A stretch of 64,000 nucleotides of DNA from Pseudorhodoferax sp. Leaf267 (GTDB lineage Bacteria; Pseudomonadota; Gammaproteobacteria; Burkholderiales; Burkholderiaceae_C), in assembly GCF_001422405.1 (NCBI RefSeq), contig NZ_LMMV01000022.1:238628-302627 (forward strand), written 5' to 3'. The position numbers and the translations under genes were made by a program. The notes under the pieces were generated by a model. That model was not told the DNA's origin and searched no databases. It saw only the letters and a list, made by a program, of their open reading frames with translations. Within the stretch, counting starts at the first letter, position 1, and the number at the start of each line of letters is the position of its first letter. Of this stretch, positions 13,044 through 54,175 are shown piece after piece.

Positions 13044-13059
13044 GCGATTAAATAATCGC
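13044..13059. promoter_or_regulatory. Inverted repeat upstream of the PEP-CTERM promoter
   Basis: GCGATTA and TAATCGC arms separated by AA, immediately upstream of the sigma-54-like element. It could be a regulator site. A sigma-54 activator usually binds farther upstream, so identity is open. Confidence 0.4.
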
Positions 13060-13417
13060 GACAATAGGTTACGAATTTGGATCAAATCCAAGCGGATGCG
13101 TATGTAAGAAAACTCGTCAGTTTCACGTAAGACATGTGTATGAAGTTAACTGACAGATATGCACTCTTGGTAATACAAATCGGAAGGTCGTGGCTTATCG
13201 CACAGGGCATTGCGGCGGATTTGTTGCGTTATTTCGCGCGACAGTGCTGGTAGGGAGACGCAAAAATGCAAGCTGACGCATCCACGGATGGTTTTCGTCT
13301 GCTAAATGCGCTAATTTGCGGGGCTTTCTCTTCCGTGGATCTGCCAGCGCGTCGTGATGGTTGGTAACCGTCTTCACGATCGGTTGCACGCACGCCGTCT
13401 TGACCGATGGCGACCAT

Positions 13418-13435
13418 GCACGCGTATACGCGTGC
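13418..13435. repeat. 18-bp perfect palindrome
   Basis: GCACGCGTATACGCGTGC, perfectly self-complementary, 29 nt beyond the amidase stop on the minus strand. There is no T-run, so it is more likely a protein-binding site or transcript-end hairpin than a standard terminator. Confidence 0.5.
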
Positions 13436-13463
13436 CCAGCGCGCGCCGCGTCGCGCTCAGCCG

Positions 13464-14804: not shown

Positions 14805-14853
14805 GGAGCCTTCTTTCGTTGGGTGAAGCGTTGAGGGGTGGGAACAGGTGGCA

Positions 14854-36073: not shown

Positions 36074-36190
36074 GGGCGCACGCACTGCGCGCCAATCCCG
36101 TCCGTTTCGCCTGGACTACTGACCAAACATCCAGCATGCCGGCCCGTTCTCCCTAGAATTGCCCGCTTGCCAGACTTCAGGCCTTTCTCC

Positions 36191-39100: not shown

Positions 39101-41977
39101 CCGGAGGACCTGCGCGCGCATGCCACCTCGCACACGGGTGCCGCGCTGCGCGATTACGAGATCGCCATGGCGCAGGGCACGCACGAGGTGCGCGAGGCCC
39201 AGCCCCGTTATGCCGCCGCACCGGCCCGGCCCGACGCCATCGAGATCGTCAACGCCAAGGAGCACAACCTCAAGTCGCTCTCGGTCAACATCCCGCGCGG
39301 CAAGTTCAACGTGGTGACCGGCGTCAGCGGCTCGGGCAAGTCCACACTGGCCTTCGACATCCTGTTCAACGAAGGCCAGCGCCGCTACCTCGAATCGCTG
39401 AACGCCTACGCGCGCAGCATCGTGCAGCCCGCGGGCCGGCCCGAGGTCGATGCGGTCTACGGCATTCCGGCCACGGTGGCCATCGAGCAGCGCCTGTCGC
39501 GCGGCGGCCGCAAGTCCACCGTGGGCACGACCACCGAGGTCTGGCATTTCCTGCGCCTCCTGTACGTGAAGCTCGGCACGCAGCACTGCACCAAGGACGA
39601 CGCGCCCGTGCAGCCACAGACGCCCGACAGCATCGCGGCGCAGCTGCTGCGCCAGTTTCGCGGCCAGCACGTGGGCTTGCTGGCGCCGCTGGTCATGAAC
39701 CGCAAAGGCGTCTACACCGAGCTGGCCGACTGGGCGCGCCCGCGCGGCTACACGCACCTGCGCGTGGACGGCAACTTCCTGCCGACCACGGGCTTCCCGC
39801 GCATCGACCGCTTCAAGGAACACACGATCGAGCTGCCCGTGGCCAGCCTGGACGTGACGCCCGAGAACGAGGCCCGCCTGCGCGAGGCGCTGGCCACGGC
39901 GCTGGAGCATGGCAAGGGCGTGGTCCACATCCTGAGCCAGCTCGACGGCCTGCGCGCCGCCATGCAGGACGGCACGCCCACGGCCCATATCGGCGAGCTG
40001 CTGGCCTTCTCGAGCAAGCGCGCCTGCCCGGTCTGCGCCACGTCGTATGCCGAGCTGGACCCGCGCCTGTTCTCCTACAACAGCAAGCACGGCTGGTGCC
40101 CCGAGTGCGTGGGCACGGGCGTCAAGCTGACCAAGGACCAGCGCCAGGTCTACGACGACTCGGTGCAGGCGGACGACAACAAGGGCCGCGAACAGACCTT
40201 CGCCGAGCCCGAGGCCGAAGACGTGGAAGAGACCGTCTGCCCGCACTGCGCAGGCACGCGGCTGAACGCCACGGCCCGCGCCGTGCGCTTCGACGGCGTG
40301 GCCATCACCGACATCGCGCGCATGTCGGTGAGCCAGGTGCGCCAGTGGGTCGGCAACCTACAGGGCGCCAACCGCATGTCCACGCGCGAGGCCGACATCG
40401 CGCGCGACCTGCTGCCCGAGATCGGCAGCCGGCTCGAATTCCTCGAAGAGGTGGGCCTGAACTACCTCACGCTGGACCGCGGCGCGCCCACGCTGTCGGG
40501 CGGCGAAGCCCAGCGCATCCGCCTGGCCGCGCAGCTGGGCAGCAACCTGCAGGGCGTCTGCTACATCCTGGACGAGCCCACCATCGGCCTGCACGCGCGC
40601 GACAACCACATCCTGCTCAACGCGCTGCACAAGCTCGGCGACAAGGGCAACACGCTGGTCGTCGTGGAGCACGACGAAGACACCATCCGCCGCGCCGACC
40701 ACATCATCGACATCGGCCCCAGCGCCGGCAAACGTGGCGGGCGGCTGGTGGCCGAGGGCAGCGTCACAGATCTGTCGAACGCCGAGGACTCGGTCACCGG
40801 CCGCTACCTGCTACACGCCATGCGCCACCCGGTGAAGCCGCGCCGCTTCGTATTGCCCCCTCTCCCGCGTGCGGGAGAGGGCAGGGGTGAGGGTCTGCCG
40901 CCTGCAGGCGATGGCGTGGAGGCATGGCTCTCCGTCCGCGGCGCCCGCCTGCACAACCTGCACGAAGTGAACGCCGCGCTGCCGCTCAAGCGCCTGGTCG
41001 TCGTGACCGGCGTCAGCGGCTCGGGCAAGTCCACGCTCGCGCGCGACGTGCTGCTCAGCAACGTGCAGGAGGTCGTCGCGCAGCGCATGACCAAGGCCGG
41101 CCGCGACCACCTCGCCAAGTTTGGCCCGGCCTGGACCGGCTGCGACAAGGTCGAAGGCCACGAGAGCATCGACCGCGTGCTCGAGGTCGACCAGACCCCC
41201 ATCGGCAAGACCCCGCGAAGCTGCCCGGCCACCTACATCGGCTTCTGGGACACCATCCGCAAGCTCTTCGCCGAGACGCTGGAAGCCAAGGCCCGCGGCT
41301 ACGCGCCCGGCCGCTTCTCGTTCAACACCGGCGAAGGCCGCTGCCCCACCTGCGAAGGCCAGGGCATCCGCACCATCGCGATGAGCTTCCTGCCCGACGT
41401 GAAGGTGCCTTGCGAAAGCTGCCATGGCGCGCGCTTCAACCCCGAGACGCTGGCCGTGAGCTGGCGCGGCAAGAGCATCGGCGACGTGCTGCAGATGGAG
41501 GTGGACGAAGCCGTCGACTTCTTCGCCAGCATGCCCAACATCGCGCACCCGCTGCAGCTGCTCAAAGACGTGGGCCTGGGCTACCTCACGCTGGGACAAC
41601 CTTCACCGACGCTGTCGGGCGGCGAGGCCCAGCGCATCAAGCTCGTGACCGAACTCAGCAAGGTGCGCGACGACGTCACGCGCCGTGGCCAGAAGCCGCC
41701 GCACACGTTGTATGTGCTGGACGAGCCCACGGTGGGCCTGCACATGGCCGACGTGGAGAAGCTCATCCGCGTGCTGCACCGGCTGGTCGATGGGGGCCAC
41801 AGCGTGGTCGTGATCGAGCACGACCTGGACCTGATCGCTGAGGCCGACTGGGTGCTGGACCTGGGCCCCGAAGGCGGCGACGGCGGCGGGCGCATCGTGG
41901 GGGCAGCGGCGCCGGAGGACCTGGTGGCGCTGGACACGGCGACCGGGCGGGCGTTGGGGCCTGTGCTGGCGCGCTGA
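36191..41977 (+). CDS. uvrA: Tandem double UvrA (four ABC ATPase domains), excinuclease A-like
   Basis: A 1,928-residue protein, twice the usual UvrA (about 940), made of two UvrA units in one chain. Four Walker A motifs are seen near residues 33 (GPSGSGKSS), 670, 1044 and 1607 (GVSGSGKST each). Four LSGGE signatures and four DEP Walker B segments follow, so all ATPase sites look intact. Both halves carry the insert corresponding to the UvrB-binding and insertion domains. Zinc modules of the type CPTC...CPDC are present. In the first half one zinc pair is broken (CPES where a CxxC is expected), while the second has CPVC. A REP-like repeat at 40857-40894 is translated as linker between domains 3 and 4. 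A role in nucleotide-excision repair or drug/toxin resistance is inferred. ATG 36191 fits better than the upstream TTG. Confidence 0.9.
40857..40894 (+). repeat. REP-like repeat, in frame inside the UvrA gene
   Basis: CCCCCTCTCCC, a short loop, GGGAGAGGG and then CAGGGGTGAGGG. This is the same family as 28696-28733. It is read as [17 protein letters not shown] in the linker between ATPase domains 3 and 4 (about residues 1555-1571), and the frame continues. Confidence 0.8.
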
Positions 41978-42198
41978 TCGGCTGGGCCATCGGAGGGACT
42001 GCGTGAAAGCGCGCCGCCCCGGTGGGGCTGGCCCGTCGTGTCACGCACCCGGCGCACAGGCTGGCTCGTCCGAAGAGCTTGTGCGCCGCCTTCGCAAAGG
42101 CAGCGCACACCTTCATCGGTTCGGGCGGGACCGAAGGCCCTGACTCGACGCAACTTCGATCCCACGGCGCGTGCCTAGGGAAAGCCCGCATGATTGAC

Positions 42199-42212
42199 GC
42201 AAATTAATTTGC
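42199..42212. promoter_or_regulatory. Palindromic operator upstream of the RpiR gene
   Basis: GCAAATTAATTTGC, a perfect 14-bp palindrome, 52 nt before the RpiR ATG. Two further TATTTGCG copies at 42237-42244 and 42250-42257 share its TTTGC half-site. A candidate RpiR-type autoregulatory region. Confidence 0.5.
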
Positions 42213-42234
42213 TTCCAATCGTTCAGATGTTGTG

Positions 42235-42240
42235 TATATT
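42235..42240 (+). promoter_or_regulatory. -10-like element for the RpiR gene
   Basis: TATATT about 25 nt upstream of ATG 42265, in an AT-rich island (42190-42255) that stands out from the GC-rich context. No convincing -35 is present at 16-18 nt spacing. The position argues against the GTG at 42232 as start codon. Confidence 0.4.
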
Positions 42241-42264
42241 TGCGTCCAGTATTTGCGCGACGCC

Positions 42265-43158
42265 ATGAAAGCAGTTCCTCCCCACTCCGTCGAAGACTTG
42301 CGCCGCCTGGTGGAGCAGGAGCGCAGCGCGCGTGGCCGCGACCGCATGGGGGAGCGCACGCTGGCAGTGTTGGTCGACATGCTGGCGCGGCCCGGCTCGG
42401 CGGCCGTTCAAAGCATTTCCGAACTGGCGGCCCACAACGGTGTGGACGCTTCCACGCTGACGCGGCTCGGCAAGCGGCTGGGCTTCGACGGCTTCACGCC
42501 GCTGCAGGACGTGTTTCGCCGGCATGTCTCCGATACCCAGCCGTTCTACAGCGCACACGTCAACGAATTGGTGACGCGGCAGGACAAGGGCGCCGCCGAC
42601 ACCCTGCAGCACCTGGCCCAGTCCGAATGCCAGAAGGTCCTGGCCGTCGCCGGCACGCTGAACCAGGAGACGCTGGACCGGGCTGTCAGCATGCTGGTCG
42701 AGGCCAGGCATGTCCATGTGCTGGCACTGCGCGGCACCTATGCGCTGAGCCATTTCTTCGGCACGTTCCTGAGCACCATGCGCGCCTCGGTCACCATCCT
42801 GGGCGGACCCGCCTTCCAGCTCGCCGAAGACCTGGCACGCATCCAGCCCGGCGACCTGCTCGTCGCCATGACGTACCGGCCCTACACCCGCGAAGTGGTG
42901 AAGGCCGTGAACCTGGCCAAGGCCGAGGGCATCCCGGTGCTGTCCTTGACCGACGCCGGCTCGGCCATCGAAGTCTCAGGCGCCGCGGGCACCACCATCG
43001 TGGTCGACCAACCTTACTACTTCGACTCGATGCTGCCGCACTACTTTGCGGCCGAGGCGCTGCTGATGGCCGTGCTGCGCAAGCTCGGGCCCAAGGCATT
43101 GCAGACCACCCGGCGTCGCGAAGCCTTTGTCAAGGCGATGGAAGTCGAGATCAAGTAA
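42265..43158 (+). CDS. RpiR/MurR-family transcriptional regulator
   Basis: A 297-residue regulator. The N-terminal HTH (about 1-80) includes AVQSISELAAHNGVDASTLT and RLGKRLGFDGFTPLQDVFR. A C-terminal SIS domain (about 120-265; VHVLALRGTYALSHFFGTFL, GDLLVAMTYRPYTREVVKAV) binds phosphorylated sugars or similar ligands in this family. It begins a plus-strand block, with 13 nt to the ABC ATPase gene, and likely controls the importer and PLP enzymes downstream. A palindrome and an AT-rich promoter island lie just upstream. ATG 42265 lacks a clear ribosome-binding site. Confidence 0.9.
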   Translation: MKAVPPHSVEDLRRLVEQERSARGRDRMGERTLAVLVDMLARPGSAAVQSISELAAHNGVDASTLTRLGKRLGFDGFTPLQDVFRRHVSDTQPFYSAHVNELVTRQDKGAADTLQHLAQSECQKVLAVAGTLNQETLDRAVSMLVEARHVHVLALRGTYALSHFFGTFLSTMRASVTILGGPAFQLAEDLARIQPGDLLVAMTYRPYTREVVKAVNLAKAEGIPVLSLTDAGSAIEVSGAAGTTIVVDQPYYFDSMLPHYFAAEALLMAVLRKLGPKALQTTRRREAFVKAMEVEIK

Positions 43159-43171
43159 GCCCCACACGAAC

Positions 43172-44224
43172 ATGAGCACGATCGAACTCATCGGCCTTGG
43201 CAAGCGCTATGGCGACTTCACCGCGGTAGCGCCGACCGACCTGCGCATCGAGCAGGGCGAGCTCGTGACGCTGCTCGGCCCCAGTGGCTCAGGCAAGAGC
43301 ACCATCCTGTCGATGATCGCGGGGCTCACGGCGCCCAGCGAGGGCGTGGTCAGGATCGGCGGGCGCGACGTGACCCACGTACCGCCCGCGCAGCGCAACC
43401 TGGGCATGGTCTTTCAAAGCTATGCGCTGTTCCCGCACATGTCGGTGTTCGACAACATCGCATTCGCGCTGAGCATCCGCGGCGTACCGAAGCGCGAGAT
43501 CACCACCCGCGTCGACAAGGCACTGGCGCAAGTGCGTCTGGGAGGGCTGGCGCAGCGCCCGCCCTCCGAGCTGTCCGGAGGCCAGCAGCAGCGCGTGGCA
43601 CTGGCGCGCGCGCTGGTCTTCGAGCCGGAGATCCTGTTGCTGGACGAGCCCATGGGCGCGCTGGACAAGAACCTGCGGGAGCAGGTGCAGCTCGAGCTCC
43701 GGCAGCTCCAGCGCGACCTGGGCGTGACCACCGTGCTGGTCACGCATGACCAGGAGGAGGCGCTGTCGCTTTCGACGCGCCTGGTGGTGCTGGACAAGGG
43801 CCAGGTGCAGCAGGTCGACGCGCCGATGCAGGCCTACATGCGGCCACGCAACCGCTTCGTCGCCCAGTTCATCGGGACGGCCAATCTGTTCAGCGGCGAA
43901 CTGTCGCAGCGCGATGGCGTGCCCGCTCTGAGGCTTGCGGATGGCACGGAGCTGGCCTGCAGCGCTGCGGGCTGCGCCGCCGGCCCTGTCCATGTCGTCG
44001 TGCGGCCCGAGCACATCGAGTTGCTGCCCCACGAGAGCGGCCACGGTCTGCAGGCCGAGGTCGTCGAGAGCGTCTACCTCGGCCAGTCGACCAAGCTGCA
44101 TTTGCGCACCGGCGATGGCGTGCAGGTCATCGCTCTGGTGCAGCAGCGCCAGGCCGAAGCGTTGCCGGGCAATCAGCTGCGCATCCACTGGCGCGCAGAG
44201 CATGCCTGGCCGATGCCCCAATAG
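43172..44224 (+). CDS. PotA-type ABC importer ATPase
   Basis: A 350-residue ATPase for a polyamine/opine/phosphonate-type (POPT) importer. It has Walker [12 protein letters not shown] (about 35-44), Q-loop VFQSYALFPHMSV, signature LSGGQQQRVALARAL, Walker B ILLLDEPMGALD and H-loop VLVTHDQEEAL. The C-terminal TOBE_2 region (about 260-350) contains FIGTANLFSG and VVRPEHIELLP. It powers the two permeases encoded downstream. The order ATPase, SBP, permease, permease is typical of PhnSTUV/PotFGHI-like systems. Substrate not determinable from the ATPase. Confidence 0.93.
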   Translation: MSTIELIGLGKRYGDFTAVAPTDLRIEQGELVTLLGPSGSGKSTILSMIAGLTAPSEGVVRIGGRDVTHVPPAQRNLGMVFQSYALFPHMSVFDNIAFALSIRGVPKREITTRVDKALAQVRLGGLAQRPPSELSGGQQQRVALARALVFEPEILLLDEPMGALDKNLREQVQLELRQLQRDLGVTTVLVTHDQEEALSLSTRLVVLDKGQVQQVDAPMQAYMRPRNRFVAQFIGTANLFSGELSQRDGVPALRLADGTELACSAAGCAAGPVHVVVRPEHIELLPHESGHGLQAEVVESVYLGQSTKLHLRTGDGVQVIALVQQRQAEALPGNQLRIHWRAEHAWPMPQ

Positions 44225-44288
44225 CTGGCGCGCACGCCGTTCATCGCGATCTGCCCTCCATTCCTTTCCACCACTCCCAGGAGATTCC

Positions 44289-45329
44289 ATGCGCAAATCA
44301 CTTCGGTACCAGGCCTTGTTCGGTGCGCTGGCCGCATCGATGACGCTGTGCGTCACCGTCGGCCACGCCCAGCCGGCCTCCACGGTCAAGGAGTTCCGCA
44401 TCATGGAGGCGGGCGGCCCCAGCGGTGACTCGGTGGAGCAGGCGTACATCAAGCCGTTCACTGCGCGCACCGGCATCAAGGTCACGCGCGAAAGCCCGGC
44501 CAGCGCCGGCAAGCTGCAGGCGATGGTGCAGTCGAAAAACATCACCGCCACCCTGGTGGAACTCGGCGCGACCGACACCGCTGCCATGCGCGCGCTCGGC
44601 ATGCTGGAGCCGCTGGACTGGGCGGCCATCAACCCCGACCCGATCTATCCCGAGGCGCGCCAGCCCGACGCTTTCGGCTGGCAGTATTCCTCCACGCTCA
44701 TGGCATGGGCCAAGGGCACCAAGCCGCCCAAGACCTGGGCCGACTTCTGGAACGTGAAGGACTTCCCTGGCAAGCGTGCACTGCCCGACTACCCCGCAGC
44801 GACCCTGGCGATCGCGTTGCTGGCCGATGGCGTGGCGCCCGACAAGTTGTTCCCGCTCGACATCGACCGTGCCTTCGCCAGCCTGCAGAAGATCAAAGGC
44901 AGCGTCGCCGTCTGGTGGAAAGCCGGAGCGCAGCCGCCCCAGTTGCTGGAAGACAAGGAAGTGAGCTATTGCGTCGCGTGGTCCGGGCGGGTGATCGGCA
45001 ACCCCAAGCTCGAATACACCTACAACCAGGGCCTGCTGTCGTTGACGACCTTCGTGGTGCCCAAGGGTGCCGACCCGGCGTCCAAGGCAGCCGCCATGGG
45101 CCTGTTGCATGAAGCGTCGAAGCTGCAGAACCAGCTGGTCGCGGCCAACATCATTCCCTACACCGGCGCCAGCCCCGGCATCGAGAAGCTCGTGCCGCAG
45201 GAGCGGATCAACGACTTTCCGACCAGCGACGTGAACAAGAAGGTCCAAGTCCCCACGGATGCGACCTGGACCGCCGCAAACGCCGCACTGCTGCAAAAGC
45301 GCTGGCAAGAGTTCAAGCTCGGCCTTTGA
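44289..45329 (+). CDS. PotD/PhnS-type periplasmic binding protein
   Basis: A 346-residue extracellular solute-binding protein (SBP_bac_8-like). The signal peptide is about 1-28, ending GHAQ. The mature part begins VKEFRIMEAGGPSGDSVEQA, then YIKPFTARTGIKVTRESPAS and QYSSTLMAWAKGTKPPKTWA, the YsxTvla-like central strand of the polyamine/iron family. It delivers the substrate to the two permeases. The acidic polyamine-binding residues of PotD are not obvious, so a different small amine, amino acid or phosphonate is possible. ATG 44289 follows AGGAGA. Confidence 0.9.
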   Translation: MRKSLRYQALFGALAASMTLCVTVGHAQPASTVKEFRIMEAGGPSGDSVEQAYIKPFTARTGIKVTRESPASAGKLQAMVQSKNITATLVELGATDTAAMRALGMLEPLDWAAINPDPIYPEARQPDAFGWQYSSTLMAWAKGTKPPKTWADFWNVKDFPGKRALPDYPAATLAIALLADGVAPDKLFPLDIDRAFASLQKIKGSVAVWWKAGAQPPQLLEDKEVSYCVAWSGRVIGNPKLEYTYNQGLLSLTTFVVPKGADPASKAAAMGLLHEASKLQNQLVAANIIPYTGASPGIEKLVPQERINDFPTSDVNKKVQVPTDATWTAANAALLQKRWQEFKLGL

Positions 45330-45381
45330 GCCTGCGCTTGCCTGAGCCCTTCTGCCCGAGCCTGATGGAGGAGTCACCCGC

Positions 45382-46221
45382 ATGAACAGGATGTCGCGCT
45401 CGGCGGGCGCGCCGGGCTTTGCGCTGGTGGTGCCGCTGTTGGTGGTGATGGCGGTGGGCTTCAACCTGCCGTTGCTGCTCATGCTCGGCAAGAGCGTGGT
45501 CGGCGAGTCGGGCCTCACCCTGGACCACTTCGCCGAACTCTTCCGGGTGCCGGCCTACCTGCAGGTTTTGGGCAGCACCTTCCGCACTGCGTTGATCACA
45601 GCCGTGTTCTGTGTGCTGCTGGGCTATCCACTGGCGTACTGGCTGCGCGGACTGCCCCCACGCTGGCAGATGGTGGCGCTGGCGGCGGTCGTCGTGCCGT
45701 TCTGGGTGAGCATCCTGGTGCGCACCTATGCGTGGATCGTGGTGCTGGGCAACGCAGGCATCGTCAACCGCACCTTGCAGGCGCTGGGCTGGGCCGACGA
45801 GCCGGTCGCCTTTCTCTACAACCAGTTGGGTGTCGTCATCGGCACGGTCAATGTGCTGCTGCCCTTCCTGGTGCTGCCGTTGTTCGCGGCCATGCTCAAG
45901 ATCGACCCGCAGCTCATCCGTGCGGCCGAAACCCTGGGCGCCAGCCACTGGACGGCCTTTCGGCGCGTGTTCTTCCCGCTGAGCCTGCCGGCGCTGGCAG
46001 CGGGCGCGATCCTGGTCTTCATCCTCACGCTGGGCTTCTACATCACGCCCGCGATCCTGGGAGGCGGGCGCGTGCCGATGATCGCCAACATGCTCGACCT
46101 GCTGGTCAACCAGCAGCCCAACTGGGAGCTGGCCTCCACCATCTCCACCGTGCTGCTGGGGGTGACGCTGGTGCTCTTCGTGATGTACCTGCGGCTCACG
46201 GCGCAGCGGGAGTCGGCATGA
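45382..46221 (+). CDS. PotB-type ABC permease
   Basis: A 279-residue inner-membrane permease with about six helices. The first is LVVPLLVVMAVGFNLPLLLM, and the cytoplasmic EAA loop is IRAAETLGASHWTAFRRVFF followed by PLSLPALAAGAIL. It pairs with the next gene to form the membrane channel. The next ATG overlaps its stop (ATGA). About 50 nt and a GGAGG separate it from the SBP gene. Confidence 0.93.
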   Translation: MNRMSRSAGAPGFALVVPLLVVMAVGFNLPLLLMLGKSVVGESGLTLDHFAELFRVPAYLQVLGSTFRTALITAVFCVLLGYPLAYWLRGLPPRWQMVALAAVVVPFWVSILVRTYAWIVVLGNAGIVNRTLQALGWADEPVAFLYNQLGVVIGTVNVLLPFLVLPLFAAMLKIDPQLIRAAETLGASHWTAFRRVFFPLSLPALAAGAILVFILTLGFYITPAILGGGRVPMIANMLDLLVNQQPNWELASTISTVLLGVTLVLFVMYLRLTAQRESA

Positions 46222-47078
46222 CGGCGGCGCTGCCAACCCGCGGACTGCCTGCGCCGGCGCGCACCAGTGCTGCCATGGCGAAGCTGCAGGACCTCATGAT
46301 CTCGGGCGTGGCCATCGCCGTGCTGGTCTTCATGTGCCTGCCGGTGCTGATCGTCATCCCGATGTCGTTCTCCAGTTCGAGCTCCCTGCGCTTTCCGCCC
46401 GAGGGTTTCTCCATGCGCTGGTACCTGCAGGTGTTCGAGGACGAACGCTGGCTGCAGGCGCTGCACACCTCGCTGGGGCTGGCGGCGCTGTCCAGCACGC
46501 TGGCCCTGGTGCTGGGGGGCTTTGCCGCCTATGGCATCACGCGGGGCCGGTTCGCCGGCAAGGACGTGCTGCAGAGCAACTTCATCTCGCCGCTGATCAT
46601 TCCGTCGGTCGTGGTCGCGGTCGCGCTCTATTTCGCGCTGGCCAAGATCGGCATGCTGGGCTCGTTCGCCGGCCTGCTGCTGGGCCACACGCTGCTGGGC
46701 GTGCCGTACGTGGTGCTGATCATGTCGGTCGCGATCCGCGGCTTCGACATCCGCATCGAGCAGGTCGCCTTCACGCTGGGCGCGTCGTGGTTCACCATGT
46801 TCCGCCGCGTGCTGGTGCCCAACCTGCTGCCCAGCGCCGTCGCGGCCTGGATCTTCGCGTTCGTGACCAGCTTCGACGAGGTGGTCATCACCACCTTCAT
46901 CGCCGGGACCCACGAGACGGTGCCCAAGCGCATGTTCAACGAGCTGGTGCTGCAGGTGAACCCGTCCATCACCGCCATCGCCACCATGCTGATCGTCGGC
47001 AGCGTGAGCCTGATGGCGCTGGCGGCCTGGCTGGGACGCCGCAGCCGCCGCGCCCAGGCGCACATCGCCAGCCAATAG
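46218..47078 (+). CDS. PotC-type ABC permease
   Basis: A 286-residue permease with about six helices. The first helix is ISGVAIAVLVFMCLPVLIVI and is followed by FSSSSSLRFPPEGFSMRWY, a periplasmic segment typical of PotC/PhnV proteins. The EAA loop reads IEQVAFTLGASWFTMFRRVL, and FAFVTSFDEVVITTFIAGTH, near the end, is characteristic of this subfamily. Overlaps the PotB-type gene by 4 nt. It is followed by the aminotransferase gene after 25 nt, so uptake and catabolism are transcribed together. Confidence 0.93.
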   Translation: MTAALPTRGLPAPARTSAAMAKLQDLMISGVAIAVLVFMCLPVLIVIPMSFSSSSSLRFPPEGFSMRWYLQVFEDERWLQALHTSLGLAALSSTLALVLGGFAAYGITRGRFAGKDVLQSNFISPLIIPSVVVAVALYFALAKIGMLGSFAGLLLGHTLLGVPYVVLIMSVAIRGFDIRIEQVAFTLGASWFTMFRRVLVPNLLPSAVAAWIFAFVTSFDEVVITTFIAGTHETVPKRMFNELVLQVNPSITAIATMLIVGSVSLMALAAWLGRRSRRAQAHIASQ

Positions 47079-47103
47079 ATCACAAGACAGGATGAGCCCC
47101 AGC

Positions 47104-48483
47104 ATGTCGACATCCATTCCTGACCATCGCCGGCACGGCGGCCCGGTCCAGCTGTTCTACCAAAAGCCGGGCACAGCGCGGCGCCCCGTGGTGGACCGGG
47201 GCGAAGACATCTACCTGTGGGACACATCCGGCAAGCGCTACATCGATGCCTCGTCCGGCCCCATCGCCGCCAACATCGGGCACGGCAATGCACGCGTGAT
47301 CGAGGCGGCCCGCCAGCAGATGCGCAGGGTGTCGTACGCCAGCCGGGCGTTCTTCGAGAACGAGGCCAACACGCTGCTGGCCGAGGCCGTGACCGAACTC
47401 GCCGGCCCCGGGCTGGAACGCGCGTTTTTCGTCTCGGGCGGCTCCGAGGCGACCGAGAGCGCGATCAAGCTGGCGCGCCAGTTCGCCGTGAGCCAGGGGC
47501 ACAGCGCGCGCTGCAAGGTGCTTTCGCGCAACCCCAGCTACCACGGCAGTACGCTCGGCGCCATGGCGATCAGTGGCGATCCCGTGCCGGAGGCCATGTT
47601 CGGTGCGATGACACGGATCGCACCCAAGGTGCCTGCACCTTTTACCTACCGCTTGCCCGATGGCCATTCGGCCGAGTCGTACGCCCTGTGGTGTGCGGAC
47701 GCTCTGGAAGAAGCAATCCTCCAGGAGGGGCCGCAGACCGTACTGGCGTTCTTCCTGGAACCGGTGGGCGGGCTGGCCACCGGGGCGCTGGTGGCGCCCG
47801 GCAGTTACTACCGCCGCGTGCGCGAGATCTGCAGCCGCCACGGCGTCCTGCTGGTGTTCGATGAAGTCATGAGTGGCGCCGGCCGCTGCGGCAGCTTTCT
47901 GGCAGCCCACCAGTGGCCTGAGGCCAGGCCCGACATCGTGACCCTCGCCAAGGGGCTCGGGGCTGGCTATACGCCGCTGGGAGCGGTGCTCGCCTCGCGC
48001 CAGGTCGTGGAGGCGGTGGCGCAGATGGGCGGTTTCATGCACGGCTACACCTATGCGTCGAACCCCCTGTCCTGTGCGATCGGCCATGCGGTGGTGCAGG
48101 AGACGGTGGAGGGCCGGCTGATGGCCAATGCCGCCGCCATGGGCGCCAGGCTGCGCGAACGCCTGCAGGAGATCCAGCGCGGCAGCCGTGTGCTGGGCGA
48201 CATCCGCGGGATGGGCCTGCTGATGGCCATCGAGATCGTCTCCGATCGTGATCGCAAATCCATCTTTCCGGCGCAAGTGCGCGCCATCGAGCGCATCGTG
48301 GCGCTGGCCATGGAACGTGGCCTGTTGCTCTATTCCAGGCGCACCGCGAACGGCGTGTTCGGCGAATGGCTCATGGTGGCGCCGCCGCTGATCGCGGACG
48401 CCGATCAGATCGACACGATCGCGGGCCTGATCGGCGAGGCACTGGCCGCCTTCGAAAGAGAAGTGCCCGCACATGGTGCATGA
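47104..48483 (+). CDS. Class III (AGXT2/omega-type) PLP aminotransferase
   Basis: A 459-residue fold-type I PLP enzyme of class III. SGGSEATESAIKLARQF binds the cofactor phosphate, VLLVFDEVMSGAGRCG supplies the PLP-binding Asp, and TLAKGLGAGYTPLGAVL has the Schiff-base Lys283. Class III enzymes transaminate omega-amino acids, diamines or opine-like amines. Some members, such as phosphoethanolamine phospho-lyases and PbfA-type enzymes, are lyases instead. It lies between the ABC importer and another PLP enzyme, so it probably acts on the imported amine. Start 47104 has GGATGAG at good spacing; ATG 47092 is an alternative. Confidence 0.9.
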   Translation: MSTSIPDHRRHGGPVQLFYQKPGTARRPVVDRGEDIYLWDTSGKRYIDASSGPIAANIGHGNARVIEAARQQMRRVSYASRAFFENEANTLLAEAVTELAGPGLERAFFVSGGSEATESAIKLARQFAVSQGHSARCKVLSRNPSYHGSTLGAMAISGDPVPEAMFGAMTRIAPKVPAPFTYRLPDGHSAESYALWCADALEEAILQEGPQTVLAFFLEPVGGLATGALVAPGSYYRRVREICSRHGVLLVFDEVMSGAGRCGSFLAAHQWPEARPDIVTLAKGLGAGYTPLGAVLASRQVVEAVAQMGGFMHGYTYASNPLSCAIGHAVVQETVEGRLMANAAAMGARLRERLQEIQRGSRVLGDIRGMGLLMAIEIVSDRDRKSIFPAQVRAIERIVALAMERGLLLYSRRTANGVFGEWLMVAPPLIADADQIDTIAGLIGEALAAFEREVPAHGA

Positions 48484-48532
48484 GCTCGACCCGCGCACCC
48501 GGCTGGTTTTGTACTGACACACAAGGGTTTTT

Positions 48533-49804
48533 ATGAACAATCCATCACCCCACCCGAACCGGGTTGGCCCCAGCTTGCCGGCCAAGGGACGGCCCTGGAG
48601 CGAGATCGCAGCGCAGTTGCAGGAGCTCAAGGCCGGCGATCCGGACTGGAAGCGCGGTCGCCTGCCGGCACTGACCTACTTTCTCGACGACGCCACGTAC
48701 GAGGTGCAGGGGAAGGCCTACCAGCAGTTCATCAGCGAACCGGTGGGATTTCCCAGCAGCAGCAGCATGCTGAAGGACATCTTCTCCATGGCGCTGCCAT
48801 TGTTCGACGCGCCCGAGGGAGCCGGCGCGAGCTTTACGACCGGCGGGACGGAAAGCGTGTTCCAGGCCATCAAGACCGCCCGAGCCCAGGCGCGCGACCT
48901 GAGGAAGGAACGCTACGGCCGATTCAACATCGTGGCGCCCGAGACCGCCCACCCTTGCCTCGACAAGGCGGCCGAACTCATGGACATCGAGGTGCGCCGG
49001 GTCGGCGTCGACGGCGAACGCCGTGGCCATGCCGCAGCCATCCAGGTGGCCATGGACGAGCGGACCATGATGGTCTACGCATCGGCGCCGTGCTACCCAT
49101 TCGGCGTGTTCGATCGCATCGAGGAGCTGGGCGCCGTGGCGCAGTCGGCGGGGGTCTGGCTGCACATCGACGCGTGCTGGGGCGGCTTCCTGTCCCCTTT
49201 CGCCAAGAAGCTGGGGCGTTCGATCCCGTCATGGGATTTTTCGGTGCCGGGCGTCTCCAGCATTTCGGCGGACCTGCACAAGTTCGGTTACGCGCCCAAG
49301 GGCGCGAGCCTGGTGATGTACCGCGATGCGGCGGTACAGCGCTATGAGCGTTTCGAGTTCAGCAACTGGCCGCGGGGCTCGTATGTGTCTCCGTCCTTCC
49401 TGGGCACCAAACCTGCCGGCGCGGTTGCCAGTGCGTGGTCGGTGATGCAGTTCCTGGGGGAAGAGGGCTTCATGAACGCCACCGCTAAGGTGCTGGAGGC
49501 CACGGCGCGCCTGGTGGCAGGTGTCAATGCGATCGCCGGGCTGCGATGCGTCGAACCAGCAGGTGAATGTGGCATCGTGGTGTTCGAGTCCACGGACGCA
49601 GCGGTCGACATCACGGCCGTCGCCGATCGCCTGCTCGGCCGGGGCTGGGTGCGCGGCCAGATGCGGGAGCCCCGTGGGATTCACCAGGGTGTCAACCCAG
49701 CCCATCTCGAATCGATGGCGGACTATCTGGGGGAACTGGCCGCCGCGACCGAGTACGTGCGCGCCCATGCGCTCACCGGCAAGTTCAACGAACACACCTA
49801 CTGA
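48533..49804 (+). CDS. Sphingosine-1-phosphate-lyase-like group II PLP lyase/decarboxylase
   Basis: A 423-residue soluble PLP enzyme. FTTGGTESVFQAIKTARAQA is the cofactor segment, HIDACWGGFLSPFAKKLG gives the PLP-ring Asp, and SISADLHKFGYAPKGASLVM holds Schiff-base Lys250. The HKFGYAPKG motif and the later WPRGSYVSPSFLGTKPAGAV, then GEEGF, are hallmarks of sphingosine-1-phosphate lyase (Dpl1) rather than of glutamate or tyrosine decarboxylases. The N-terminal membrane helix of the eukaryotic enzymes is missing. It may cleave a phosphorylated amino alcohol or decarboxylate an amino acid. It is the last gene of the RpiR-ABC-aminotransferase block, preceded by AAGGG. Confidence 0.87.
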   Translation: MNNPSPHPNRVGPSLPAKGRPWSEIAAQLQELKAGDPDWKRGRLPALTYFLDDATYEVQGKAYQQFISEPVGFPSSSSMLKDIFSMALPLFDAPEGAGASFTTGGTESVFQAIKTARAQARDLRKERYGRFNIVAPETAHPCLDKAAELMDIEVRRVGVDGERRGHAAAIQVAMDERTMMVYASAPCYPFGVFDRIEELGAVAQSAGVWLHIDACWGGFLSPFAKKLGRSIPSWDFSVPGVSSISADLHKFGYAPKGASLVMYRDAAVQRYERFEFSNWPRGSYVSPSFLGTKPAGAVASAWSVMQFLGEEGFMNATAKVLEATARLVAGVNAIAGLRCVEPAGECGIVVFESTDAAVDITAVADRLLGRGWVRGQMREPRGIHQGVNPAHLESMADYLGELAAATEYVRAHALTGKFNEHTY

Positions 49805-49867
49805 AGTTCGTCCGTGCGGCGCTTGCGGTGCCGGCTGCTGGCCGACGCCCCCTCCAGCGTGGGAATC

Positions 49868-50275
49868 TCATCGCGACGCTCGCCCGACCTTCAGCTTCAA
49901 CGTCTCGAGATCCCGCCGCACATGCGCCACATCGGCCTCGAAGCTCTGCTGGCTCACCCCTTCCAGCCGCAGCACCACGAACGTCAGCAAGCAGCCGTCC
50001 CCGCAAGGCGTCACCCGAAAGGCGTTGTGCACCGTGGTGCCATCGGGCAGCGTGACATCGTGGTCCATCACCCCGAACGCATTGGCCGGCGCCATGGCCA
50101 CCTGTACTTGGCCCATCGGCGAACTGGCAAACCAGTGACCATGGCGTTGTTCGATTCCCGCTGCGAGCCCTGAGGCCCACAGCGGCAGGTTCTCCATGCG
50201 GCTCGCGAACGCGTAGACCGCGTCCGCCGAGGCATCGATCGTCTGGCTCACCACTACCGCTTCATGCACGGTCAT
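49868..50275 (-). CDS. SRPBCC-family (polyketide cyclase/START-like) protein
   Basis: A 135-residue helix-grip protein. The opening strand VVVSQTIDASADAVYAFASR and the following LPLWASGLAAG are typical of SRPBCC/polyketide-cyclase-like proteins, which bind hydrophobic ligands. The C-terminal long helix is QQSFEADVAHVRRDLETLKL. Ligand unknown. The ATG at 50275 has AGGA upstream; the longer frame to 50335 is not supported. It converges with the lyase gene (63-nt gap) and stands alone. Confidence 0.8.
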   Translation of the reverse strand: MTVHEAVVVSQTIDASADAVYAFASRMENLPLWASGLAAGIEQRHGHWFASSPMGQVQVAMAPANAFGVMDHDVTLPDGTTVHNAFRVTPCGDGCLLTFVVLRLEGVSQQSFEADVAHVRRDLETLKLKVGRASR

Positions 50276-50451
50276 CACGTCCTGCCTTTCGTCATAAGGG
50301 GAGGACGCTGATTCTGGCGCCGACGGCCGACACACAAGGGCCTTTCACGCCACTGTCAAATTCCCCCGCGAACATCCATGACCGCCGCATGACCGATCCG
50401 TGTCAGCGTCGTTCTTCGTTCGACCCCTTTGCGCCCCGGGCGCCCCCCGAC

Positions 50452-52284
50452 ATGCCTTTGCTTTCGCCTGCCCGCCCGGGCCGCTGGACCGTTCTCGCCG
50501 CCGCCTGCGCCGCCACACTGATGATCGCTGCCTGCGGCGGCAGCGGCGACGATGACGAGGCCACGCCGACCACCATCGCGCTGAGCCTGCTGGGCCGCCA
50601 TGAGACCGGTATCTTCGAGCAGAGCGCCGCCGAGATCCCGGCCTTTGACGCGGCCAGCCGGCGCGCTTTCGTCGTCAACGCGCACAAAGGTGCGCTCGAC
50701 GTGATCGACCTCAGCGACCCGGCCAAGCCGCGCCACATCGGCGAGATCCAGACGCGCAGCCTGCGCGCCGGCGTGCAGGCCAACAGCGTGGCCGTGAAGA
50801 ACGGCATCGTGGCCGTGGCCGTGCAGGCCGCGGTGAAGACCGACCCGGGCTTCATCGCGCTGTACCGTGCGTCCGACCTCGCGCTGCTGGGCCAGGCCAA
50901 CGTGGGCGCGCTGCCCGACATGCTCACCTTCACGCCCGACGGCCAGACCCTGCTCGTGGCCAACGAAGGCGAGCCCAGCGACGACTACCAGGTGGACCCC
51001 GAAGGCTCGGTCAGCCTCGTCGACGTGCGCAACCCGGCCGCGCCCGTGGTGCGCACGGCCGACTTCAAGGCCTTGATCGGCCAGGAGGCCGCGCTGCGCA
51101 CCCAGGGCGTGCGCATCTTCGGCCCGCGCGCGAACGCGGCGCAGGACTTCGAGCCCGAATACATCACCGTGTCGGAAGACGGCCGCACGGCCTGGGTGGC
51201 GCTGCAGGAAAACAATGCGCTGGCGAAGATCGACATCGCGAGCGCCACGGTGACGGCCATCACTGCGCTGGGCTTGAAGGACCACGGCCTGGCCGCCAAT
51301 GGCCTGGACGTGACCGACACCGACGGCAAGGCCGACATCCGCCCCTGGGCCGGCCTGCGCGGGCTCTACCTGCCCGACGCCATCGCCTCGTACAGCAGCG
51401 GCGGCAAGACCTACATCGTCACCGCCAACGAAGGCGATGCACGCGCCTGGGGCGAGGGCAACGCGGCCTACTGGGCCGGCGATGCGCGCCAGGGCTTTGT
51501 CGAGGAATTCCGCGTCAAGCACCTGGTGCACAACAGCGGCTTCGACCGGCGCGCGGGCGAAGACCTGCCGCCGCAACTGCGCGCGCTGGCCGCCGGTGCG
51601 GTGCTGAACCCGGATGTGTTCGGCTACTGCGGCGCGACCTGGAACCTGGCGGCCGGCACGGCCTCGTCGGGCGCCTGCCGCGACGACAACCAGCTCGGCC
51701 GGCTCAACATCACCTGGACGCTGGGCTACCAGACCAACCCCGACGGCAGCCCGCTGCTCAAGCGCCTGAACGGCAAGGATGTGCTGGTCTACGACGCGCT
51801 GTATGCCTACGGCGGCCGCTCGTTCTCGATCCGCGACGAGAACGGCGTGCTGGTCTGGGATTCGGGCGACCAGTTCGAGAAAAAGCTGGCCGAGCTGCTG
51901 CCCGCCCACTTCAACTCCGACCACGCCGAGACCGCGTTCGACAGCCGCAGCGACAACAAGGGCCCGGAGCCCGAGGGCCTGGCCATCGGCCGCATGGGCG
52001 AGAAAACGTATGCCTTCATCGGCCTGGAGCGCATCGGCGGCGCGATGGTTTACGACGTGAGCAACCCGCAGGCGCCGGTCTATGTGAGCTACATCAACAG
52101 CCGCGATTTCTCGGTGGCCAAGCCGGGCGACACCGCCGCCAGCCTGAAGCAGGCCGGCGACCTGGGGCCGGAGGGCTTGGCCTTCGTGGCGGCCAAGGAT
52201 TCGCCGAATGGCAAGCCGCTGTTGATCGTGGGCCATGAGGTGAGCGGCACGACCGCGATCTACCAACTCAACGCGACGTACTGA
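50452..52284 (+). CDS. Choice-of-anchor-I lipoprotein (beta-propeller, phosphatase-like)
   Basis: A 610-residue exported protein of the choice-of-anchor-I family, here anchored as a lipoprotein: the N-terminus ends LMIAACGG, with the lipobox Cys. The propeller domain has repeated strands such as AFVVNAHKGALDVIDLSDP, NSVAVKNGIVAVAVQA, PDMLTFTPDGQTLLVANEGE and YLPDAIASYSSGGKTYIVTA, and near the end GPEPEGLAIGRMGEKTYAFI and RIGGAMVYDVSNP. Function unknown; related proteins resemble alkaline-phosphatase-associated or esterase-like propellers. ATG 50452 gives a compact signal peptide; an in-frame ATG at 50389 would add 21 residues. It is monocistronic and convergent with the SMP-30 gene. Confidence 0.87.
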   Translation: MPLLSPARPGRWTVLAAACAATLMIAACGGSGDDDEATPTTIALSLLGRHETGIFEQSAAEIPAFDAASRRAFVVNAHKGALDVIDLSDPAKPRHIGEIQTRSLRAGVQANSVAVKNGIVAVAVQAAVKTDPGFIALYRASDLALLGQANVGALPDMLTFTPDGQTLLVANEGEPSDDYQVDPEGSVSLVDVRNPAAPVVRTADFKALIGQEAALRTQGVRIFGPRANAAQDFEPEYITVSEDGRTAWVALQENNALAKIDIASATVTAITALGLKDHGLAANGLDVTDTDGKADIRPWAGLRGLYLPDAIASYSSGGKTYIVTANEGDARAWGEGNAAYWAGDARQGFVEEFRVKHLVHNSGFDRRAGEDLPPQLRALAAGAVLNPDVFGYCGATWNLAAGTASSGACRDDNQLGRLNITWTLGYQTNPDGSPLLKRLNGKDVLVYDALYAYGGRSFSIRDENGVLVWDSGDQFEKKLAELLPAHFNSDHAETAFDSRSDNKGPEPEGLAIGRMGEKTYAFIGLERIGGAMVYDVSNPQAPVYVSYINSRDFSVAKPGDTAASLKQAGDLGPEGLAFVAAKDSPNGKPLLIVGHEVSGTTAIYQLNATY

Positions 52285-52368
52285 GAGCATCCGCCAGTTC
52301 CGCGGCGGTCGTTGGGGGCCCGCTCCGCGGCCTTCGGTTCCGAAGCAGACGCGCAGGGCGGCTGGGCG

Positions 52369-53268
52369 TTACGGCGTGCCGGCTCCCGGCACGTCGACCA
52401 CGGTGGTCCAGATCGCCGCCTCGCGCGCTGCCTTGCGCGCGGCCTCGTGGAAGTCGGGCGCCACGCACAGGCACAGCGTGCGCCGGTCCGGCCCGGCCAG
52501 CGTGAGCGCGAAGCAGCCCATGTTGCCGGTGGAGATGCTTTGCAGGATCTCGCCGCCCGGCGCCATGCGCACGGCGCGGTGGCCCACGGCGTCGGCGAAC
52601 CACACGGCGCCCTCGGCGTCGAGCACGGCCCCGTCGGGCGCGGCCTTCAGGCTGCCCAGCACGGCCGGCACGTCGCGCATCGTCGGCAGATCGCCGAACC
52701 GGGCCCAGTCGCGTCGTGGGCCCAGCGTGCCGTCCACGCGCACGTCGAAGGCCGAGATGCGGTTGCCCATGGTCTCCACCACGATCAATGTCTTGCCGTC
52801 CGGCGTGAGCATGGAGCCGTTCGGAAAGTACAGGTCCTCGGCCGCGATGAAGGCCGTGCCGTCGGGCTCCACGCGTGCGAGCCGGGCCAGCGCGGGCGCG
52901 CCGCCGCCCATGAGGTCGAAGCCGAAGTTGCCCACATAGGCACGGCCCTCGCGGTCCACCACCATGTCGTTGACATGGCCGCCGGCAATGCCCGAGAGAT
53001 CGGCGTGCTGCACGAGGCGGCCGTCGGCCTCGCGCCGCATGATCTTGCGCTCGCGCATGGAGACGACGAGCAGCCGCCCGTCCGGCAGCCAGCCCAGGCC
53101 CGAGGGCTGGCCCGGCACCTCGGCGATCTGCTCGACACGGCCATCCAGACCGACGGCGATCACCTGGTGCGTGTAGAAGTCCGACAGCCAGAGCCTGCCC
53201 TCGTGCCAGCGCGGCCCCTCGAAGAAGGTGTAGCCGGCGATGAGTTCTGAGAAGCGCGGTTCGGTCAT
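52369..53268 (-). CDS. SMP-30/gluconolactonase-family lactonase
   Basis: A 299-residue six-bladed beta-propeller lactonase (regucalcin-like). Metal-binding positions fit: Glu17 in YTFFEGPRWHEGRLWLSDF, Asn in GGHVNDMVVDREGRAYVGN and Asp in the NGSMLTPDGKTLIVVETMGN region. It probably opens a sugar- or hydroxy-acid lactone. It starts 13 nt after the upstream SBP gene, so it is in the same transcript as the amino-acid-type binding protein, in a neighbourhood with Bug proteins and a DapA-family enzyme that suggests organic-acid catabolism. Confidence 0.9.
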   Translation of the reverse strand: MTEPRFSELIAGYTFFEGPRWHEGRLWLSDFYTHQVIAVGLDGRVEQIAEVPGQPSGLGWLPDGRLLVVSMRERKIMRREADGRLVQHADLSGIAGGHVNDMVVDREGRAYVGNFGFDLMGGGAPALARLARVEPDGTAFIAAEDLYFPNGSMLTPDGKTLIVVETMGNRISAFDVRVDGTLGPRRDWARFGDLPTMRDVPAVLGSLKAAPDGAVLDAEGAVWFADAVGHRAVRMAPGGEILQSISTGNMGCFALTLAGPDRRTLCLCVAPDFHEAARKAAREAAIWTTVVDVPGAGTP

Positions 53269-53281
53269 GTCGTCTCCTTGT

Positions 53282-54175
53282 TTACTTGGCGTAGGCTTCG
53301 AGTGGCTTGTCGTTGGGCTCGCGGAAGAGTTGCTGCAGCGTGTCGCTCATGGGCAGGTTCAGGTTGGCGTTCTTGGGCGGGATCGGCGACATGAACCACT
53401 TGGTGTAGAGCTTGGCGGCCTCGCCCGACTGCATGAACTTGCGCAGCGCATCGTCCACGGCCTTCTTGAAGGCCGGGTCGTCCTTGCGGAACAGCAGCGC
53501 GATGGGCTCGGAGGCCAGGGCTTCGCCGACGATGTGGTAACCCGTGGGGTTGCGGCCGTTGGCGATCAGGCCGGCCAACAGGTTGTCGTCCAGCACGAAG
53601 GCGTCGGCGCGGCCCGACTCCAGGATCAGCATGCTGTCGAAGTGGTCCTTGCCCAGCACCGTGGGGATGTCGATGTTCTTGTTCTTCGCATAGGTGCGCA
53701 GCAGCTGCACGGCCGTGGTGCCGGTGGAGGCGGCCACGGTGCGGCCGGCCAGCTGGTCGAACGAGGTGATGCCCGAGTCCTTCTTCACGGCCATGCGGAC
53801 CTGGCTCACGTAGCTGGTCAGCGCGAAGGCCACCTGTTGCTGGCGCGTGAGGTTGTTGGTGGTGGGGCCGCAGCCGATGTCCACCGTGCCATTGCCCACC
53901 AGCGACATGGTGTTCTGCGCGGTCAGCGCCATGTACTCGCGCTTGGCAGTCGGGGCGATCTCCTTGAGCACGTGTTCGCACAGCTCGACGTGGTAGCCCA
54001 CGTACTGCGCATTGGCGCCCAACGCATAGGCCATGGGCGCAGAGGCTTCGCGCACGCCCAGCACCACGGTGCCGGTGGACTTGATCTTGTCGAAGGTGCT
54101 GGTGGCGGGGTTGCCCTGGGCCGAGGCGGCGCAGGCCAGCGAGGCGAGGGCGATGGAAAGGAAGAGGCGGTTCAT
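53282..54175 (-). CDS. Amino-acid-type ABC solute-binding protein (GltI-like, family 3)
   Basis: A 297-residue periplasmic binding protein. The signal peptide is about 1-19 (ends ASAQ). The mature chain has FDKIKSTGTVVLGVREASAP, VGYHVELCEHVLKEIAP, NGTVDIGCGPTTNNLTRQQQ and LAGRTVAASTGTTAVQLLRT, the order found in GltI-type glutamate/aspartate proteins (SBP_bac_3). No permease or ATPase genes are adjacent, so it is an orphan. It is co-transcribed with the SMP-30 lactonase and divergent from a Bug-type gene. Confidence 0.9.
   Translation of the reverse strand: MNRLFLSIALASLACAASAQGNPATSTFDKIKSTGTVVLGVREASAPMAYALGANAQYVGYHVELCEHVLKEIAPTAKREYMALTAQNTMSLVGNGTVDIGCGPTTNNLTRQQQVAFALTSYVSQVRMAVKKDSGITSFDQLAGRTVAASTGTTAVQLLRTYAKNKNIDIPTVLGKDHFDSMLILESGRADAFVLDDNLLAGLIANGRNPTGYHIVGEALASEPIALLFRKDDPAFKKAVDDALRKFMQSGEAAKLYTKWFMSPIPPKNANLNLPMSDTLQQLFREPNDKPLEAYAK

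Follow-up and report, generated by a model that had tools for sequence, protein, structure and literature searches.

A probably horizontally acquired operon of Pseudorhodoferax sp. Leaf267 with an RpiR-family regulator, an ABC importer and two different pyridoxal-phosphate enzymes, and its likely role in carboxylated-amine catabolism

What is the substrate of an operon that joins an RpiR-family regulator and an ATP-binding cassette (ABC) importer to two different pyridoxal 5'-phosphate (PLP) enzymes, one of them resembling sphingosine-1-phosphate (S1P) lyase? The question is raised by a 64,000-nucleotide stretch of Pseudorhodoferax sp. Leaf267 (contig NZ_LMMV01000022.1, positions 238,628 to 302,627; here called the window). 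Seven intact genes at 42265-49804, all on the + strand, are spaced by 13 to 64 bases or overlap by 4 bases and form an operon-like run; the next gene is on the - strand. An initial annotation of the locus had counted six adjacent genes. Their adjacency is confirmed, the number being seven since the importer has two permease genes, and Pfam and NCBIfam agree with its placing of a regulator and an importer in one run with two PLP enzymes of different kinds. The reading preferred here, at a probability of about 0.6, is that the operon was gained by horizontal transfer and serves the breakdown of a carboxylated amine, the likeliest being a beta- or omega-amino acid of the non-proteinogenic kind. 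Such a substrate is considered most likely, ahead of a phosphorylated compound or a polyamine, and the operon would work like known operons for amino-acid import and catabolism.

The last enzyme of the operon carries HKFGYAPKG at residues 249-257 and the SP-G-PAGA motif, SPSFLGTKPAGA, at residues 286-297, and the earlier assignment to the S1P-lyase lineage on these motifs stands. The solubility of the window enzyme is not unusual, since StSPL and other bacterial S1P lyases are likewise soluble. StSPL (PDB 3mad) is the best solved relative. An AlphaFold2 model built from a 62-row alignment (predicted local distance difference test 94, predicted template-modelling score 0.92) matches StSPL with template-modelling (TM) scores of 0.86-0.91 (0.91 for the first match, 0.90-0.91 for most chains). 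It matches the human, yeast, Aspergillus and Burkholderia S1P lyases with 0.87-0.90, a shorter Legionella chain with 0.71, and MfnA or glutamate decarboxylases with 0.79-0.82. Roles of the PLP-site and substrate-phosphate residues of StSPL were taken from Table 3 of PMC6148460. The PLP-site residues G168, T169, H201, D274, C276, H310 and K311 are all conserved (G105/T106, H140, D213, C215, H249 and K250 in the window enzyme), S353 corresponds to T292, and the H384 column is common to both. Of the substrate-phosphate pocket (A103, Y105, N126, H129, K317), in contrast, two of five residues are kept (Y49, K256); A103 is replaced by L47, N126 by P70, and H129 falls in a deletion. The active-site loop is shortened. 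N126 has been lost by the window enzyme, as all 91 homologues examined have Asn at this position. The H129 position is Gly in 80 of the 91, so that at this site most homologues are unlike S1P lyase.

The window enzyme deviates from the homologue group at 14 of 82 well-conserved columns (leave-one-out median for homologues, 2); two homologues exceed this (L005 with 19, L007 with 22), and the nearest relative, from Falsochrobactrum (L032), has 13. With 423 aa it is shorter than the SPL-type relatives L025, L028 and L031 (480-487 aa) and the 514-residue StSPL chain, and it is missing the C-terminal extension near the substrate entry that these relatives have. A 43-residue C-terminal query gave just chance matches, to capsid structures. 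In a midpoint-rooted tree of 38 rows with one characterised sequence, the window enzyme, the Falsochrobactrum protein and one from a Rhizobiaceae metagenome-assembled genome (L047) form a clade with support of 100/100, and a 99/96 split separates 33 rows including the window enzyme from five including StSPL. A true S1P lyase was ruled out on the phosphate pocket, the C-terminus and the tree. Because key parts of the phosphate pocket are lost, the residue pattern suggests that the enzyme probably acts on something other than sphingolipid phosphates.

A decarboxylase is another conceivable role. In an ordinary omega-amino-acid route the S1P-lyase-like (SPL-like) enzyme would convert aspartate to beta-alanine, which transamination would turn into malonate semialdehyde; an equivalent route would use glutamate and gamma-aminobutyric acid (GABA). 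Membership in PF00282, 191.2 bits with the MfnA model TIGR03812, the class III aminotransferase and a GABA-type binding protein are consistent with this. The TIGR03812 score is, however, under the cut-off of 299.4, and the fold is nearer to StSPL than to MfnA or the glutamate decarboxylases. Cys215 and Lys256 match S1P lyase and not the one aligned plasmid glutamate decarboxylase, the Asp of the GABA site is lost from the binding protein, and there is no evident reason to import a common amino acid and decarboxylate it. Group II amino-acid decarboxylases bind the substrate carboxylate with an Arg of the C-terminal domain. The H384 column is His in 86 of 92 rows (the 91 homologues and StSPL), and the lone aligned glutamate decarboxylase has a 7-residue insertion there. 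Such a route is regarded as rather unlikely. Extremely improbable is a Dat/Ddc-like biosynthetic pair, in which the class III aminotransferase and a PF00282 decarboxylase would make 1,3-diaminopropane for a siderophore. Gene pairs of this kind exist, for example on a Halorussus plasmid beside IucA/IucC, where the second gene is annotated merely as aspartate aminotransferase family and is presumably the decarboxylase. The window pair, though, sits with an importer and without a siderophore gene, and its PLP enzyme is of the SPL type and matches the 2,4-diaminobutyrate decarboxylase model weakly (44.8 bits, cut-off 900).

The binding protein of the importer has no NCBIfam match. Its best solved relatives are 4i1d, GABA sensors and Atu4243, at E-values of 1e-48 to 1e-38; mannopine and agropine binders follow behind 4i1d, Pf622 and Atu4243, and PotD reaches just 1e-4. 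The GABA site of iGABASnFR2, which is built on Pf622, is described in a passage of PMC12999171 as W9, T13, F100, Y102 (F102 before mutation), W202, R205, D228 and Y264, with D228 hydrogen-bonding the GABA amino group. The window protein has A, S, Q, S, W, R, T and Y at these positions. Compared with Pf622 and Atu4243 (PDB 9d57, 4eq7/4euo), members of the same family, three residues are thus identical (W231, R234, Y291), one is a conservative change (T13 to S45) and four differ (W9 to A, F100 to Q, F/Y102 to S, D228 to T), so that the ammonium end is altered. Two Skermanella proteins (A, S, Q, Y, W, R, A, Y) have the nearest pocket among those aligned. A GABA importer was ruled out on the D228 and F100 positions. 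The pocket Arg, which we take to hold the ligand carboxylate, is kept while D228 is lost, a pattern which suggests that the ligand is carboxylated but is not GABA.

A polyamine, imported and then transaminated as in an ordinary putrescine pathway, has only a very slight chance of being the substrate. Of the features of polyamine (POPT) importers, the operon has a PotA-type ATPase, whose model score is just over its cut-off, and PotB/PotC-like permeases; a PotD/PotF-type binding protein is not present. The GABA/opine-type binding protein with its pocket Arg argues against polyamines, no glutamylpolyamine synthetase or aldehyde dehydrogenase is encoded in the operon, and the SPL-like enzyme would be left without a role. 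The initial annotation had named a standard polyamine importer as one outcome that would overturn its proposal; at the sequence level this is not what was found, the best solved relatives being GABA and opine binders. Related importers adjoin aminotransferase genes elsewhere. In Cupriavidus sp. P-10 the neighbour is a class III aminotransferase (38%), with no SPL-like gene found in the 19 kb, and in Skermanella class III and class IV aminotransferase genes are adjacent, the class III one remotely related (23% over part).

The regulator contains a SIS domain (PF01380, 42.7 bits, cut-off 25) and an HTH_6 match just under the cut-off (27.9 bits, cut-off 28.3). According to a passage of PMC12713135, four RpiR proteins whose ligands are known bind the phosphate through a strongly conserved loop, and the loop of SpNanR makes its contacts via Ser and Thr. 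Where 4ivn has SSSGSTKE and 8ju9 has SQSGRSKD, the window protein has TYRPYTRE. It resembles NanR-, MurR- and RccR-type regulators in its SIS domain and probable HTH, with a different sequence in place of SxSGxTK. Its best solved match, 3sho, likewise deviates from this motif. PYTR is invariant in six of six aligned rows, namely the window protein and five from Rhizobium clusters on three plasmids, which are ordered BKACE, RpiR, aminotransferase, amino-acid ABC importer (GlnHPQ), C45 peptidase, RpiR. Common to these clusters and the window are the PYTR-type RpiR (30-31%), a class III aminotransferase (39-41%; that of R. leguminosarum is above the PRK07483 cut-off) and an ABC importer. The Rhizobium clusters differ in having a polar-amino-acid importer, a C45 peptidase and BKACE, and no SPL-like gene occurs in the 17-kb plasmid stretches. 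Each cluster has two different RpiR genes (L119, 1040-8888; L120, 991-8888; L121, 1072-8894), both with PYTR in L119 and L120. PYTR-type RpiR proteins therefore accompany genes of amino-acid catabolism. Judged from the loop, a phosphorylated ligand is doubtful for the window regulator, and PYTR in place of SxSGxTK can serve as a sequence flag for members of the RpiR family whose ligand is probably not a phosphorylated sugar.

A perfect palindrome, GCAAATTAATTTGC (42199-42212), precedes the ATG at 42265, and its exact sequence was found nowhere else in the 6.5-Mb genome; with up to three mismatches about 0.33 matches are expected per shuffled window, and at least one was found in 31 of 100 shuffles. 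Half-sites are located at 42196-42204 (GACGCAAAT), 42238-42246 (ATTTGCGTC) and 42251-42257 (ATTTGCG). This region is a candidate RpiR operator. It overlaps an alternative GTG start at 42232, and for this reason the ATG is favoured.

The best NCBIfam match of the class III aminotransferase is PRK07483 (421.9 bits, below the cut-off of 485), and its motif AKGLGAG contains K287, presumably the catalytic lysine. In a 22-row tree it belongs to a 6-row group (99/97), which together with a BKACE-linked sister group makes up an 11-row clade (100/98). Three Sinorhizobium members of the 6-row group are near an M20 aminoacylase, or a penicillin acylase and an amidase, and in two of them BKACE genes are about 3 to 5 kb away. 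Sister-group aminotransferases adjoin BKACE, a GNAT acetyltransferase and an HDAC-family deacetylase in some cases and BKACE and a deacetylase in others; one setting has a CoA-transferase, a thiolase and a deacylase. BKACE and CoA-transferase/thiolase are two ways of using a beta-keto acid, and the sister transaminases therefore probably act on beta-amino acids, N6-acetyl-beta-lysine transaminase being a known activity of this kind. The products in the clade look like beta-keto acids. The window enzyme is 49-51% identical to the aminotransferases of the aminotransferase-BKACE-GNAT-deacetylase operons of Phyllobacterium, Shinella and Pararhizobium. In contrast to these, the window operon is without BKACE, GNAT and deacetylase genes, and its importer and regulator differ. 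That gene order is conserved on three plasmids (L125, 7965-11799; L126, 7959-11799; L127, 7968-11813) and is possibly a route for N-acetylated beta-amino acids of the beta-lysine type.

An aminotransferase of the 11-row clade is located about 5 kb from an SPL-like gene on plasmid CP081101 (Rhodobacteraceae bacterium M382). On NZ_CP123585 (Alisedimentitalea scapharcae) an aminotransferase outside the 22-row tree, 48% identical to the window enzyme, is about 5 kb from an SPL-like match, possibly the same cluster by inheritance. The pair of aminotransferase and SPL-like enzyme thus recurs with another importer and regulator.

In the proposed mechanism the binding protein and the PotA-type importer would bring a carboxylated amine into the cell, the PRK07483-like transaminase would take off a beta or terminal amino group to give a keto acid or an aldehyde, and the S1P-lyase-lineage enzyme would make a C-C (or C-COOH) cut beside an amino group. 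Action of the lyase before the transaminase is the simpler order, as the amino group is required by the lyase. RpiR would bind the upstream palindrome and sense the compound or an intermediate. S1P lyase, polyamine, GABA and BKACE pathways are set aside since each failed a defining feature tested. A bolder version, distinctly doubtful, would place the lyase-lineage enzyme in a group of C-C lyases, so far undescribed, that act on carboxylate analogues of sphingoid phosphates. Its cleavage of an imported beta-amino-gamma-hydroxy acid would yield an aldehyde and an amine of the beta-alanine type, which corresponds to phosphoethanolamine but bears a carboxylate; the neighbouring beta-amino-acid transaminase would deaminate the amine, and the SIS domain of RpiR would sense an amino acid instead of a sugar phosphate.

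The surroundings of SPL-like genes were compared in 92 loci, the remainder of 97 after five without a predicted SPL gene had been removed; these loci cannot be counted as independent, gene calls were made for the purpose, and the clusters counted are the 30 largest, each named from one representative. A cluster of SBP_bac_3 amino-acid importers occurs within 6 kb of the SPL-like gene in 12 of the 92 loci, a GntR/FCD cluster in 18, and an NMT1-type binding protein cluster in nine. The closest relatives follow the amino-acid pattern: the Falsochrobactrum gene adjoins an SBP_bac_3 importer and a second SPL-like gene, and the Rhizobiaceae gene an SBP_bac_3 importer, a second SPL-like gene, a class III aminotransferase, short-chain dehydrogenases and a split transketolase. 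At this Rhizobiaceae locus (387-16762) the two SPL-like genes are divergent, an aldehyde dehydrogenase and a gluconolactonase-like gene are also present, and the gene set has the look of a pathway for a polyhydroxylated amine. In six loci (L021, L022, L023, L024, L026 and L027) another type of SPL-like gene, from the taxonomic family of the window genome, adjoins an NMT1-type ABC binding protein. The SPL-like enzymes are a large group, at least 12 of 92 loci having an amino-acid binding-protein gene within 6 kb, and automatic annotation could mistake its members for sphingolipid or phospho-enzymes.

Several observations weigh against the preferred reading. The SBP_bac_3 cluster is not within 6 kb in 80 of the 92 loci, the class III aminotransferase cluster is within that distance in just five, and the neighbourhoods of the family are varied (NMT1-type ABC importers, AMP-ligases, TctC, hydantoinase). 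The seven-gene operon has no BKACE, two being encoded elsewhere in the genome, and is without a CoA-transferase or dehydrogenase of its own; no BKACE is found in the 17 kb around the Roseomonas aminotransferase (57%), a member of the 6-row group and the nearest relative whose neighbourhood was viewed. The SIS loop of the window regulator keeps one Thr, has two Arg and could bind some anion. Two findings at other loci bear on phosphorus compounds: in L089 the SPL-like gene adjoins a phosphonate-type binding protein (PF12974), and an NMT1-type binding protein (L051, which represents the cluster found in nine loci) weakly matches a phosphonate model (28.6 bits, cut-off 27). L089 also has a class III aminotransferase and a PotA/B/C-like importer near the SPL-like gene (3683-9168).

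The substrate class suggested by the initial annotation was a phosphorylated amino compound or a phosphonate. On that explanation the SIS domain would detect a phosphorylated amino compound or an aminophosphonate, and the SPL-like enzyme would cleave it. The lineage and fold of the enzyme, its retained equivalents of K317 and Y105, the presence of a SIS domain and the two phosphonate links at other loci speak for it. The phosphate loop of the SIS domain is rewritten, however, the lyase phosphate pocket is mostly gone (A103, N126 and H129 positions) together with the C-terminal extension, and the binding protein is of the GABA/opine family and retains its pocket Arg. The suggestion was therefore abandoned on the SIS-loop and lyase-pocket residues and is considered very unlikely. 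A carboxylated amine is retained as the preferred substrate class, and with the compact operon held in one segment it can be sought by straightforward ligand screening.

A survey for the whole operon, which the initial annotation had called for, covered 86 loci: the best 80 of at least 489 confirmed relatives of the SPL-like enzyme from genome contigs, and six from plasmids, a match being a tblastn hit with E<=1e-8 across 90 aa or more. Absence of co-occurrence elsewhere was the second outcome that the initial annotation had set against its proposal, and it is half borne out: the full set was found in none of these loci and may occur elsewhere, beyond the best 80, but sub-combinations of its genes recur in other genomes. 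The binding protein was matched in none of the 86 loci, a similar ATPase with both permeases in three (L058, L075, L089), RpiR in one (L044), and the aminotransferase somewhere in the stretch in 13, above 40% identity just in L005. The annotator knew of no described pathway with this combination, and in the open-access literature none was found that combines S1P lyase with RpiR and an ABC transporter, or with an amino-acid ABC transporter, an aminotransferase and GntR, nor one with RpiR, an aspartate aminotransferase family protein, an amino-acid ABC transporter and BKACE, or three of these four. Among the RpiR papers listed from this literature, which mostly lacks subscription journals, none points to such a pathway in its title or the opening of its abstract.

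Table 1. Coordinates of the operon genes and associated features (window numbering)
Feature	Position	Strand	Remarks
MurR/RpiR-family regulator (probable HTH + SIS)	42265..43158	+	SIS loop TYRPYTRE where the phosphate loop is expected
ABC importer ATPase, PotA subfamily	43172..44224	+	TIGR01187 potA, 357.3 bits (cut-off 355.6)
Periplasmic binding protein, GABA/opine-type SBP_bac_8 family	44289..45329	+	SBP_bac_8, 120 bits
Binding protein pocket	44289..45329		A41 S45 Q132 S134 W231 R234 T253 Y291
ABC permease 1 (PotB/PotH-like)	45382..46221	+	Pfam/NCBIfam
ABC permease 2 (PotC/PotI-like)	46218..47078	+	Pfam/NCBIfam
Class III aminotransferase	47092..48483	+	Aminotran_3, 298 bits; nearest PRK07483, below its cut-off
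S1P-lyase-lineage PLP enzyme	48533..49804	+	PF00282 (Pyridoxal_deC), 90.7 bits; 423 aa
SRPBCC-type protein (Polyketide_cyc2)	49868..50335	-	Within the same accessory segment as the operon
Accessory segment	41975..50342		Missing from the corresponding site in congener G591
Candidate RpiR operator	42196..42257		Palindrome and half-sites; putative function

The operon is part of an accessory segment of 8368 bases that contains its seven genes and a small SRPBCC-type gene. In the congener G591, which has both flanks without the segment, the match to the preceding uvrA-like gene stops at window position 41974 and, 30 bases further on, the sequence again matches the window from 50343. The binding protein was found (E<=1e-70) in one of six genomes of the genus, the window's own. 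In overlapping genome samples it was found in one of 300 genomes of the order (E<=1e-60), one of 398 of the phylum (E<=1e-70) and two of 369 of the class (E<=1e-45); apart from its own genome, the sole hit in these samples has 34% identity. The aminotransferase (E<=1e-140) was found in one of 399 genomes of the order, again its own. The SPL-like enzyme, the sole PF00282 match at E<=0.001 in its own genome, was found (E<=1e-30) in 12 of 299 genomes of the family, the other 11 at 39-41% identity. Its nearest relatives among the best 80 of 489 are those of Falsochrobactrum (54%) and the Rhizobiaceae genome (48%); the binding protein is nearest to Skermanella (58%; other importer parts 57-64%) and the aminotransferase to Roseomonas, Phaeobacter and Sinorhizobium (54-57%). 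Among those seen, most of the closest relatives of the operon parts are alphaproteobacterial. The G+C content of the segment in four 2-kb bins is 66-68%; that of 26 of the 28 other bins is 68-73%, the remaining two being lower (63 and 65%). The simplest explanation is that the segment was transferred as a unit, presumably into the Pseudorhodoferax lineage, though it may instead have been lost by deletion in the congener.

A 12-base direct repeat at 48516 and 50329 was dismissed as a probable chance occurrence, the segment containing 19 repeated 12-mers. The repeat (17 bases at 88%) flanks the SPL-like and SRPBCC genes, and its second copy is at the right edge of the segment. The site downstream of the uvrA-like gene (41974-53283) differs within the genus: G591 carries the gene at 50.4-52.3 kb there, the window genome has this gene plus the operon, in three genomes (G253, G175, G590) uvrA is directly next to the gene at window position 53283, and in G069 uvrA alone was matched in the stretch examined. 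The UvrA-like open reading frame itself (36167-41977) encodes 1936 aa, about twice the usual length of UvrA, and its first 611 aa were matched in six of six genomes of the genus.

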